Shown: positions 32,157-36,284 of the stretch, in pieces
Position numbering within the stretch: position 1 is the first letter of the stretch
Layout: the number at the start of each line of letters is the position of its first letter
DNA from: an uncultured Nocardioidaceae bacterium
GTDB taxonomy: Bacteria; Actinomycetota; Actinomycetes; Propionibacteriales; Nocardioidaceae
DNA: 36,284 bases
Reading direction: 5' to 3'
NCBI GenBank assembly: GCA_902805865.1
Contig: CADCUK010000070.1
Location: forward strand, 1-36,284
Notes under the pieces: model-generated
The model's input: only the letters and a program-made list of their open reading frames with translations
Database searches by the model: none
Told to the model about the DNA's origin: nothing
Made by a program: the position numbers and the translations under genes

Positions 32157-33282
32157 GTGCGCCCCGCTCGTCGTACGCCCGGTCCAGGAACGCGCGCACC
32201 GTCTCGTGGTAGCCGGGAGGCGTCAGCAGGAACGAGTCGTGCCCCGCGGGCGAGCTGATCTCGCGGAACGACACCGGGACCCGGCCGTGCTCGAGGGTCC
32301 GCACGATGCGGCGGGAGTGGGCGGTGCTGAACCGCCAGTCGGAGTCGAACGAGACGACGAGCGCCTGCGTGCCTGCCTCCGCGATCCGGCCGACGGCCGC
32401 CGGGTCGGCGAACGGGTCGTAGTAGTCCATGACGCGGGTCAGGTAGAGGTACGACAGCGCGTCGAACCGGTCGAGGAACGACTCTCCCTGGTGGCGGAGG
32501 TAGGACTCCACCTGGAAGTCGACGTCGAAGCCGAGCGCCGGGGTCGCGCCGTGCTGCAGCCGCCGGTCGAACTTGTCGGTGAGCGCCTGGTCGGACAGGT
32601 AGGTGATGTGCGCCATCATCCGCGCGATCATCAACCCGATGTCGGGACGCCGGTCGGACTCGAGGTAGCGACCGTCCGCGAAGTCGGGGTCCCGCATGAT
32701 CGCCTCACGGGCGACCGCCGTGAAGGCGATGTTCTGGGCGCTCAGCCGGCTGCTGGCCGCGACGACGACGGCGTTCGCGACCTCCTCGGGGGTCTCGGCC
32801 ATCCACTGCACGACCTGCATGCCGCCGAGCGATCCGCCGACCGCCGCTGCGAGACGCCGTACGCCGAGGTGGTGCATGAGCGACCGGTGCACGGTGACGA
32901 AGTCGGTCATCTGGATGAGCGGGAAGTCCAGCCCGTAGGGACGGCCGGTCGCCGGGTCGGTCGACGCAGGGCCGGTGGTCCCCTGGCAGCCGCCGAGCAG
33001 GTTGGGCGAGATCACGAAGAACCGGTCGGTGTCGACGGGCTTGCCCGGGCCGATGAGGTTGTCCCACCAGCCGACGCGACCGTCGGGCGTCGTACCTGCA
33101 GCGTGGGCGTCGCCGGTCAGCGCGTGGCAGACGAAGACCGCGTTGTCCGCCTGGGGGGAGAGGGTGCCGTAGGTCTGGAAGGCCACCTCGACCGGAGCGA
33201 GCGTCCGGCCGCTGGCAAGGCGGAGCGGGTCGCCCTCGGGGAAGAGGACGACCCGCTCTGTCGCTGTGGCGCCAAGGCTCAC
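32146..33282 (-). CDS. metX: Homoserine O-acyltransferase (MetX)
   Basis: 378 aa, alpha/beta hydrolase fold. It acylates homoserine (acetyl-CoA most often), giving the substrate for MetY. The catalytic triad is visible: Ser151 in VGGSLGGMQ, Asp315 in FDSDWRF and His348 in SPAGHDSF. LLGGCQGTTGPAS and MTDFVTVHRSLMHHLG are typical of MetX. Acetyl or succinyl preference cannot be read safely by eye. The GTG start overlaps the metY stop (GTGA, 4 bases), and the 3' end overlaps metW by 11 bases. Regulation is probably from the metY promoter. Confidence 0.96.
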   Translation of the reverse strand: MSLGATATERVVLFPEGDPLRLASGRTLAPVEVAFQTYGTLSPQADNAVFVCHALTGDAHAAGTTPDGRVGWWDNLIGPGKPVDTDRFFVISPNLLGGCQGTTGPASTDPATGRPYGLDFPLIQMTDFVTVHRSLMHHLGVRRLAAAVGGSLGGMQVVQWMAETPEEVANAVVVAASSRLSAQNIAFTAVAREAIMRDPDFADGRYLESDRRPDIGLMIARMMAHITYLSDQALTDKFDRRLQHGATPALGFDVDFQVESYLRHQGESFLDRFDALSYLYLTRVMDYYDPFADPAAVGRIAEAGTQALVVSFDSDWRFSTAHSRRIVRTLEHGRVPVSFREISSPAGHDSFLLTPPGYHETVRAFLDRAYDERGARAA

Positions 33283-34574
33283 TTGGCAGCGGTGAGGGCC
33301 TGCTCGAGGTCGGCGAGGATGTCGTCGATGTGCTCGATGCCGACCGACAGCCGCACCATGTCCTCCGGCACGCCGGCGGTGTCGAGCTCCTCAGGAGTGA
33401 GCTGGGAGTGCGTCGTGGTGGCGTTGTGGATCGCCAATGACTTGGCGTCCCCGATGTTGGCCAGGTGACTGATCAGCTGCAGCGACTCGATGAACCGCTG
33501 ACCGCCCTCGCGGCCCGACTTCACCCCGAAGCTCACCAGGCCGCCGTACCCGCCCTTCAGGATCCGGTCCGCGACCTCCTTCTGCGGGTTGGACTCGAGC
33601 CCGGGGTAGGTCACCCACGAGACGTTGTCGTGGTTCTCGAGGTACTGCGCGACCTTGAGGGCGTTCTCGCTGTGCCGCTCCATGCGCAGGTGCAGCGTCT
33701 CGAGACCCTGCAGGAAGAGCCACGAGTTGAGCGGCGCGATGGCCGCGCCCGTGTTGCGCAGCAGGACCGTGCGGGCCCGGATGATGTAGGCGAGGTTGCC
33801 GACGGCCTCGGTCCACACCACGCCGTGGTAGGCGCCGTCGGGTCCGGTCAGCCCGGGGAACCGCTCCTTGTGGGCGTTCCAGTCGAAGTTGCCGGAGTCG
33901 ACGATGACGCCGCCGATGCTGGTGCCGTGGCCGCCGATGTACTTCGTCGCCGCGTGCACGACCACGTCGGCACCGAGGTCGAATGGCCTGCACAGCAACG
34001 GAGTCGGAGCGGTGTTGTCGACGATGAGCGGGAGCCCCTGCGCGTGGGCGGCGTCGGCCCAGGCGCTGATGTCGACGACGTTGACCTTCGGGTTCCCGAT
34101 CGTCTCGGCGAAGACGAGCCTGGTGCGGTCGTCGACGTGCTGGGCGAGCTCCTCGGGCTTCTCCGGGTTGACGAAGCGCACCTCGATCCCGAACTGCGGG
34201 AGGGTGTGGGCGAAGAGCGCGAAGGTGCCGCCGTACAACGTCGAGATCGCGACGATGTTGTCGCCGGTGCCGGCGATGTTGAGCACGGCGTACGTCGTCG
34301 CGGCGGAGCCGGACGCGGTGGCGAGCGCACCGACGCCGCCCTCGAGAGCGGTCATCCGCTCCTCGAAGACGCTCTGCGTCGGGTTCATGATCCGCGTGTA
34401 GATGTTGCCCGGCTCGGCCAGCGAGAACAGGTTCGCGGCGTGCTCGGTGTCGTTGAAGACGTAGGACGTCGTCTGGTAGATCGGCACGGCTCGGGCGTTC
34501 GTCGCCGGATCTGCCTCTTCCTGGCCGGCGTGGATGGCCAGGGTCTCGGGTCGATAGGTGCTGGGCTCAGTCAT
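33279..34574 (-). CDS. metY: O-acetylhomoserine sulfhydrylase (MetY)
   Basis: 431 aa, the full-length type. This PLP enzyme makes homocysteine from O-acetylhomoserine and sulfide. Marks: YRPETLAIHAGQE, YTRIMNPTQ (PLP-phosphate site from the partner subunit), ATASGSAAT, VDNTAPTPLLCRP, and the PLP lysine Lys211 in VVHAATKYIGGHG. First gene of metY-metX-metW. The ATG at 34574 is preceded 6 bases upstream by TAGGGT, which fits a leaderless mRNA, with a 19-base near-palindrome overlapping it. No SAM riboswitch is present in the short upstream region. Confidence 0.97.
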   Translation of the reverse strand: MTEPSTYRPETLAIHAGQEEADPATNARAVPIYQTTSYVFNDTEHAANLFSLAEPGNIYTRIMNPTQSVFEERMTALEGGVGALATASGSAATTYAVLNIAGTGDNIVAISTLYGGTFALFAHTLPQFGIEVRFVNPEKPEELAQHVDDRTRLVFAETIGNPKVNVVDISAWADAAHAQGLPLIVDNTAPTPLLCRPFDLGADVVVHAATKYIGGHGTSIGGVIVDSGNFDWNAHKERFPGLTGPDGAYHGVVWTEAVGNLAYIIRARTVLLRNTGAAIAPLNSWLFLQGLETLHLRMERHSENALKVAQYLENHDNVSWVTYPGLESNPQKEVADRILKGGYGGLVSFGVKSGREGGQRFIESLQLISHLANIGDAKSLAIHNATTTHSQLTPEELDTAGVPEDMVRLSVGIEHIDDILADLEQALTAAK

Positions 34575-34601: not shown

Positions 34602-34651
34602 AGCGCCCGATTGTCTTGCCATTCGGTACAGATTCTCGTTCGGCTGAGTCC

Positions 34652-35644
34652 CTACCGACTTTCAGTCACGGGGTGACTGACTCTCGGTACTGATTGCGGT
34701 GCATCAGGCTCGAGGTGGCCCAACACCGAGCACGTCGGGCTGCACCGTCTCGGCTTCCCCAGCCATCCTCGGTTCCTGAGAACCCGGCCCAGACGACCGG
34801 CAGTTCGACACGCGGTGCTCTCGGCGTGCCGCCAACCCAGCCGAAGCGTCATCACGTCGTCGCCGGCTACGAGCAGGTCCCGGTCCTGGTCGTCCCACTT
34901 GTCCCGACTGGCCTCGTGGCCGATGCGGCCGTCAAGCTCGATCACGAGTCGGTACTGGCTGTACCTCACGTCGCGGTAGACGATGCCGTCCTCCGTGCGC
35001 TCATGGGCCTGCCTGTCCGGTCGTGGTAGGCCGTGAGCCCTTTCCACCCGACGCCGGTAGGTCCCTTCGAGCACCGACTGAACGCCGTCGGTGACATCCT
35101 GGAGCACGCTCAGAAGCCATCGGCGATGCCTGAGGCGGGGCTGACGCTCCAGCTCGGCAGCCAACCGTCCCGGAGTCGTCACTCTCCGTCGGCAGGCAGC
35201 CGACACGAGCGCAAGTGCATCGACTCGCGTCCTGGCTCCGCCACACATGGACAGCAATGCGTCCTCGAGCCGCACTCGGGGAGGGCCAACATGCCACTGC
35301 ACGCGCGACTCCAGGTCCACCAGCTGGTGGGCCCGAACGCCCGGCAAGGGCGTCGGCGTACGCGCCGCGTCCACAGCCACGTGGATCACGTCTCCGGCGC
35401 GGTTGACGCTCGACTCGTCGGTGAGCGCGGCCGGCCAGTGAAAGAGCACCGCTGCCCAGGCGCGGTTCGACCAGGTCAACGGTCCCGTGTGGTTCACGTA
35501 CACGCCGGTGTGCACCCTCCGAAGCTCGCGGCGGCGCACCCAACGACGGATATCGGCGTCAGTCGCCCCGGCGTCGATCAGCTGTCGACGTGCGACCACG
35601 CCGGATTGCTCCTCGAGCCTCTCCCGGACGACACGCAGCTCCAT
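34652..35644 (-). CDS. AbiEi-type HTH plus DUF559 (Vsr-like) nuclease-like protein, solitary
   Basis: 330 aa from the ATG at 35644. Residues about 10-50 form the winged helix of AbiEi-type antitoxins (SGVVARRQLIDAGATDADIR, then LRRVHTGVYV). The middle, to about 180, is helical. The C-terminus (about 185-290) resembles DUF559/Vsr-like PD-(D/E)xK nucleases: RLVIELDGRIGH with Glu236 and Asp238, followed by DDQDRDLLVAGDDVMTLRLGW. No AbiEii nucleotidyltransferase toxin gene adjoins. Such solitary genes recur in actinobacteria and their role is not known. Start is uncertain: a TTG at 35692 has AGGTGG abutting it, and the ATG has no ribosome site. It sits between purQ and metY with matching palindromes at both ends. 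Confidence 0.75.
   Translation of the reverse strand: MELRVVRERLEEQSGVVARRQLIDAGATDADIRRWVRRRELRRVHTGVYVNHTGPLTWSNRAWAAVLFHWPAALTDESSVNRAGDVIHVAVDAARTPTPLPGVRAHQLVDLESRVQWHVGPPRVRLEDALLSMCGGARTRVDALALVSAACRRRVTTPGRLAAELERQPRLRHRRWLLSVLQDVTDGVQSVLEGTYRRRVERAHGLPRPDRQAHERTEDGIVYRDVRYSQYRLVIELDGRIGHEASRDKWDDQDRDLLVAGDDVMTLRLGWRHAESTACRTAGRLGRVLRNRGWLGKPRRCSPTCSVLGHLEPDAPQSVPRVSHPVTESR
34653..34693. repeat. Nested palindrome, copy at the 3' end of the AbiEi/DUF559 gene
   Basis: Inner arms TCAGTCAC (34662-34669) and GTGACTGA (34673-34680) enclose GGG. Outer arms TACCGA (34653-34658) and TCGGTA (34684-34689) lie around them. The copy encodes the protein's last ten or so residues. Positions 34656-34693 match 35710-35747 at 29 of 38 bases in the same orientation. 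Confidence 0.7.
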
Positions 35645-35706
35645 GGCGCACAGGGTGCTTGTCGGGGGCGCCTGCCTGCTGCGTCGGAGCAACCACCTGA
35701 GGACAG

Positions 35707-35747
35707 TGCCGAATTTCAGTCACCCGGTGGATGAAACCCGGTAGTGA
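35707..35747. repeat. Nested palindrome, copy at the 5' side of the AbiEi/DUF559 gene
   Basis: Arms TTTCA (35714-35718) with TGAAA (35732-35736) and CACC (35721-35724) with GGTG (35726-35729) form an imperfect palindrome centred on 35725. Outer arms TGCCG (35707-35711) and CGGTA (35739-35743) repeat the design of the other copy. It lies between the purQ stop and the start of the nuclease-like gene. Confidence 0.7.
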
Positions 35748-35753
35748 CGCGAG

Positions 35754-36284
35754 TCAGGCGTTGGTGAGCGACTTCAGGACCGAGGTGAAGAACGGCAGCC
35801 CGTCGGTGCCGGGTCCGCAGAGCTCCTCGACGGCGTGCTCCGGGTGCGGCATCAGCCCGACCACGTTGCCGCGCTCGTTGGTGATCCCGGCGATGTCGCG
35901 CAGGGAGCCGTTGGGGTTGCCGCCGAGGTAGCGGGCGACGACGCGCCCCTCGCCCTCGAGCTCGTCCAACGTCGCCTCGGACGCCACGTAGCCACCCTCG
36001 CCGTTCTTGAGCACGATCGTGACCTCGGCGCCGGCGTCGTACTCGCTGGTCCAGAGCGTGCCGGTGTTCTCGATCCGCAGCCGCTGGTCGACGCAGTTGA
36101 ACTTGCGGTGGTCGTTGCGGATCAGGGCGCCGGGCAGCAGGTGGGACTCGCAGAGGATCTGGAAGCCGTTGCAGATGCCCAGGACCGGCAGGCCCCGGGA
36201 CGCGCCCGCGATCACCTCGGTCATCACCGGCGCGAAGCGGGCGATGGCTCCGGCGCGCAGGTAGTCGCCGTACGAGAAGCCGCC
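35754..36284 (-). CDS. purQ: Phosphoribosylformylglycinamidine synthase I, glutaminase subunit (partial)
   Basis: The C-terminal 176 residues are present; the start lies beyond the right edge. The class I glutamine amidotransferase supplies ammonia to PurL. The nucleophile cysteine lies in [11 protein letters not shown] and the His-Glu pair in [26 protein letters not shown], at the very edge, is the oxyanion-side motif of PurQ. The frame is open through 36284, so an internal Met is not the start. purS is expected just upstream (outside). In most actinobacteria purL follows directly; here the nuclease-like gene, the met operon and the sugar dehydrogenase intervene. Confidence 0.96.

Follow-up and report, generated by a model that had tools for sequence, protein, structure and literature searches.

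A solitary AbiEi-Vsr fusion gene bracketed by gene-matched palindromes points to a REPtron-like or homing-like system in actinobacteria

Why does a gene for a DNA-binding, nuclease-like protein stand alone between two copies of the same palindrome? The question is raised by a 36,284-nucleotide stretch of DNA from an uncultured Nocardioidaceae bacterium (contig CADCUK010000070.1; hereafter the window), in which such a gene separates purQ from metY. The relevant features, by position in the window, are these:

33279-34574, minus strand: metY, flanking gene, O-acetylhomoserine sulfhydrylase family (Pfam Cys_Met_Meta_PP, E 5e-140)
34651-34691, no strand: downstream palindrome, centred on 34671; it overlaps the end of the fusion gene (final codons and stop); 14/20 positions paired
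34652-35644, minus strand: AbiEi-Vsr (EDxHD-type) fusion gene (ORF list; alignment of 46 relatives; AlphaFold)
34763-35083, minus strand: nuclease domain of Vsr fold (residues 188-294), containing E193, D225, E236-L-D-G, H243 and D252
35090-35644, minus strand: AbiEi antitoxin-like part, residues 1-185, winged helix and C-terminal domain (Foldseek, PADLOC)
35705-35745, no strand: upstream palindrome, centred on 35725, lying 81 bp ahead of the ATG and right behind the purQ stop; 14/20 positions paired
35754-36284, minus strand: purQ, flanking gene, 3' part, extending past the window end (Pfam GATase_5, E 2e-24)

Counted from the ATG at 35644, the product has 330 aa, and the stop codon occupies 34652-34654; a TTG at 35692 is an alternative start, and the alignment of relatives favours the ATG. 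A preliminary description, made from the sequence alone, had reported a solitary gene without a toxin partner inside two nested palindromes of the same orientation, and both points are confirmed. The fusion gene is the sole gene between metY and purQ, and no AbiEii toxin ORF adjoins it (Pfam, ORF list). Segments 34656-34693 and 35710-35747 are identical at 29 of 38 bases, and both copies fold as hairpins (left and right DNA-fold z of -4.3 and -2.6); when loci are swapped as a control, upstream and downstream flanks as similar as these turn up in 0.4% of cases. Each copy has 14 of its 20 positions paired, and both are thus worn in comparison with those of relatives. Such worn copies, the window's included, escape the strict palindrome finder and are caught by the flank-similarity test and a centred profile. 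There is no third copy within the window. However, the genome to which it belongs (82% complete) has a perfect one (contig C27:4205-4257), with no nuclease gene alongside; its neighbours are a gene that, by reading of the sequence, we take to be guaA and a GMC oxidoreductase gene.

The protein is composed of two parts (AlphaFold model, pLDDT 92). Residues 1-185 resemble a complete AbiEi antitoxin (PDB 6y8q; Foldseek E 3.6e-5; Z 11.2 over 176 residues). By sequence, AbiEi is the only part of the protein that is recognised: PADLOC AbiEi models match 44/46 relatives, and Pfam AbiEi_4, for which the window protein falls under the cut-off, is matched in 39/46. A sequence search against solved structures gave no match; the fold search succeeded, placing residues 188-294 with the catalytic domain of I-Bth0305I (3r3p, Z 10.6), NGO0050 (3hrl, Z 10.6) and Vsr (1cw0, Z 9.6). 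Of the initial label "Vsr/DUF559-like", then, the Vsr half is clearly borne out by the structural matches, but the DUF559 half is weak by sequence, since DUF559 (PF04480) has no match in the window protein and is seen in 3/46 members only (best E 0.0032). In the alignment of 46 sequences, E193, D225, E236, H243, D252 and R255 are invariant or nearly so, with a presumed mapping to the EDxHD motif. Because catalytic-type residues are invariant in the 46 relatives, the nuclease is likely, judging from conservation, to be active. Three cysteines near the C terminus (C279, C301 and C305) are also invariant in the 46 relatives and possibly form a small zinc site. Neither the window protein nor its relatives match a transposase family, HUH or other.

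At E<=1e-40 the gene family is present in 187/342 genomes of the host's family, and it is found in 77/297 genomes of a class-wide sample. By the strict criterion (score >=15), a palindrome pair brackets the gene at 37/84 loci, compared with 11/497 swapped controls. In the looser flank-similarity test, 53 of the 84 loci exceed the 99th-percentile value for swapped flanks; the other 31, without a significant pair by the measure used (decayed or missed), often have a strong palindrome, alike in layout, on a single side. The palindromes are about 41-49 bp long and have a common half-site layout, GYGGAGGNTYGSNGNCACC (n=144 half sites). Around a single central base the half site reads G-Y-G-G-A-G-G-N-T-Y-G-S-N-G-N-C-A-C-C, with the remaining arm positions varying by gene. 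The proposed check, whether the window's motif recurs at other AbiEi-nuclease loci, is negative for the exact 38-mer, which is absent from them, but positive for the layout, of which each locus has its own equivalent. The upstream and downstream copies of a locus resemble each other and not the copies of other loci, and their relative orientation (direct or inverted) follows no rule. Protein and palindrome distances are weakly correlated (Spearman 0.195; 0/300 permutations), most weakly for the winged helix. Among loci outside the host's family, where other palindrome layouts occur, 12/15 exceed the 99th-percentile value of the swap null.

Several loci show variations in arrangement. One (L013 in G001, 1332-1411 and 2437-2527) carries two distinct palindromes on either flank of the gene, their order mirrored, like nested bracketed units, and another (L011 in G003) has three cognate palindromes (1333-1384, 2409-2460 and 2741-2792), two of them downstream with a spacer of about 280 bp. 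Family f23 (L291, L293, L294 and L297) has another palindrome layout, with GATCATCGGCGATC or GATCATCAAGGATC arms, and its genomes often hold 2-6 copies of the gene. A distant homologue with 31% identity (L016 in G004) has similar palindromic sequence on either side, so the pairing rule may extend to divergent members.

Palindromes of this type are also scattered outside the gene loci, which the preliminary description had not foreseen. In 16 genomes the core GTCACCNGGTGAC occurs at 60 sites, compared with 8 for the reversed control, and most of its occurrences in the genomes read are palindromes of about 41-49 bp with no nuclease gene within 1.5 kb ("solos"). Their number per genome is small, reaching 16 at most with this core. 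Among the 33 bona fide solos, 27 lie in intergenic DNA, mostly right behind gene 3' ends; the neighbouring genes are convergent at 12, tandem at 13 and divergent at 2. When solo arms, with the core excluded, were compared with 117 gene-flanking palindromes, the best match belonged to a gene of the same genome for 22/33 solos, a count reached by 0/5000 label permutations. The solo of the window's genome best matches the palindromes of the window gene, and a genome with two genes (G154) has two solo families, one for each gene. Since most loci of the gene family show the pairing, each with arms of its own, and the solos match the resident gene, there is strong support for the palindromes belonging to the protein; the original proposal that they are recognition sites is well supported, and it is strongly implied that the protein recognises its own palindrome. 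At the scale of whole genomes the dependence on the gene is loose, since the core is also present in genomes without a close homologue (mean count 1.90, vs 2.68 with the gene; p 0.12, largest genus).

At one orthologous convergent intergenic spot, a solo is present in G245 and absent from G228 and G223. At solos L071 and L072, a strict, clean insertion junction was not obtained because the intergenic DNA is too diverged. Where G245 has its solo (locus L064), the orthologous site in G166 (L318) contains a different tandem palindromic repeat (GACCCGTCGTGAGTTCG / CACGACGGGTC). Elsewhere (L095 in G177, 1474-1537), two tandem solos lie 51 bp apart with a common spacer, a BIME-like arrangement.

Sites with and without the gene were compared between species, each species being represented by one genome. 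The purQ-metY synteny is also present, without the gene, in two congeners. One of these (G001) has exactly one palindrome, near the purQ stop and with a CACC-N-GGTG centre; the other (G002) has none. The arms of the G001 palindrome agree with the window's at 12/28 positions and with those of G001's own genes at 10/28, and given this difference the palindrome is not simply what the window's element left behind. The idea that gene-less relatives keep a single copy of the motif between purQ and metY thus holds in one congener for number and place, but not for the arms, and not in the other.

The hot spot at miaB is occupied by the gene in 34/70 genomes, in forward orientation in 19 and in reverse in 15. 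Two palindromes are detected at 20 of the 34 occupied sites; of the 36 gene-less sites, three have one palindrome, 33 have none, and two are never seen. In the gene tree, multiple separate lineages are found at this single site, and a forward gene (L223) is sister to eleven reverse genes there. In this reverse clade, 10/11 members have both palindromes, and the left-right likeness within a genome is 33.9/41, vs 28.9 and 27.8 for orthologous copies. The two copies thus change together, left and right being closer to each other within a genome than to their orthologues elsewhere. Shared insertion places with the gene in either orientation also lie between a PALP enzyme and an Asp/Glu racemase (L012, L021, L043 and L166) and between GlnR and a GNAT gene (L017, L168 and L184).

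These patterns are probably best explained by a REPtron-like or homing-like system, in which a non-HUH nuclease recognises the palindromes that bracket its own gene and spreads or maintains them. We infer direct binding, cleavage and movement along the following lines. The protein would be a homodimeric DNA-binding nuclease, combining an AbiEi antitoxin fold with a Vsr/EDxHD endonuclease, and the dimer would recognise its own palindrome of about 41-49 bp, its outer GNGGNGG boxes perhaps being contacted by the winged helices and its centre by the nuclease domains. A fusion dimer reading so long a palindrome would be natural, since EDxHD homing endonucleases dimerise on DNA targets almost 60 bp long (PMC3943268) and palindromic promoter sequences are bound by AbiEi proteins (PMC11062541). 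Binding or cutting of the cognate palindrome, with repair or recombination at that place, would then spread or maintain the palindromes. The bracketed gene could be lost, leaving a single palindrome, be re-inserted, or be inverted at the same site; the three single-palindrome sites among the 36 empty miaB sites are suggestive in this respect, not proof. The upstream palindrome would probably double as an operator for autoregulation. The early suggestion of a homing-type element, or of the scar of its insertion, is thus plausible and partly supported.

A system in which nothing moves must be weighed against this. The protein could be a solitary regulator that uses palindromic operators to repress its own gene and a small group of others, its nuclease domain serving some other purpose. 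AbiEi antitoxins do bind the palindromes of their own promoters (PMC11062541), the upstream palindrome is usually placed 90-160 bp ahead of the gene, and co-evolution of a regulator with its operators would also yield gene-matched arms. However, the second copy lies behind the gene, where there is no obvious target to control, and the solos are mostly found past 3' ends or between convergent genes rather than in promoters. The near invariance of the nuclease residues and the repeated occupation of one site in both orientations also argue against regulation alone, which we consider unlikely.

It is quite improbable that another enzyme moves an element whose ends or targets are the palindromes, with the gene riding along as a passenger. 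Units with like ends at hot spots common to several lineages would fit such an element, but there is no other gene between the palindromes, no transposase adjoins the unit at the loci with identified neighbours, and the palindrome arms track the nuclease gene.

Very improbable, too, is that ordinary bidirectional transcription terminators or insulators happen to lie around a small isolated gene. Strong hairpins right behind gene ends are what such signals would look like. However, the upstream and downstream copies match each other and not those of other loci, displaced flanks of the same loci contain no pairs above the 99th percentile (0/78), and the gene-specific arm families would be left unexplained. 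Nor do the solos have the T-runs of terminators, TTTT being found within 12 nt of an arm in 0/33, and this reading was rejected on that ground. Finally, a defence module whose nuclease attacks incoming DNA, with the palindromes as operator or self-mark, is hardly credible: AbiEi is part of the AbiE anti-phage system and its PADLOC models match nearly all members, but the window gene lacks an adjoining AbiEii toxin, the hot-spot flanks examined (miaB, NUDIX, PALP, racemase, GNAT and GlnR) contain housekeeping genes and no defence genes, and scattered solos would be unexpected.

The favoured reading, of a nuclease that spreads or maintains its own palindromes, can be set beside known systems. 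In REPtrons (RAYT/TnpAREP with REP/REPIN; PMC8266576, PMC3116915), a nuclease-type gene, usually in few copies per genome, is likewise bordered by palindromes, each gene with its own family, and further palindromes are scattered outside the genes. However, RAYT is an HUH/Tyr single-strand transposase that acts on GTAG-tagged hairpins (PMC8266576, PMC3116915), whereas the protein here is an AbiEi-Vsr fusion, and a GTAG tag 5' of the palindrome is absent from the consensus and the listed copies. The AbiEi-Vsr palindromes are also longer, nearly loopless, built around a CACC-N-GGTG centre, and far fewer than typical REPs. The EDxHD homing endonuclease I-Bth0305I (PMC3943268) has the same nuclease fold, and enzymes of its type likewise have a long, probably dimeric target, with the gene located at the presumed target and recurring at common sites. 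A homing gene splits its target when it inserts; here there appear to be two target copies, one on each side of the gene, and the AbiEi DNA-binding part and the solo targets across the genome are further differences. The AbiE type IV toxin-antitoxin system has in common with residues 1-185 the full AbiEi fold (PDB 6y8q), and its AbiEi binds promoter-near palindromes. The window locus, however, is without the AbiEii toxin, and has a fused nuclease and palindromes that not only flank the gene on both sides but also occur at other places. The Vsr mismatch endonuclease is alike in the fold of the C-terminal domain, but AbiEi-Vsr shows no sign of a mismatch-repair context, is fused to AbiEi and is tied to palindromes. 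In the open-access literature, no description was found of DUF559/AbiEi proteins with palindromes or of REP-type repeats with Vsr.

The pattern, seen across many actinobacteria, suggests a homing or repeat-spreading system that has not been described before. More tentatively, this may be a new selfish or domesticated repeat system of actinobacteria, in which AbiEi-Vsr would cut its own palindrome in double-stranded DNA, spread the palindromes, and re-insert or flip its gene, independently of HUH transposases, an intron or an intein. The palindromes give the widespread solitary AbiEi-nuclease genes of actinobacteria a directly testable target, and provide many natural protein-target pairs for the study of long-palindrome recognition. 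If the reading is true, a REP-like system would have been built on an unrelated, homing-type nuclease, and the combination of a nuclease gene with cognate scattered palindromes would have arisen more than once.
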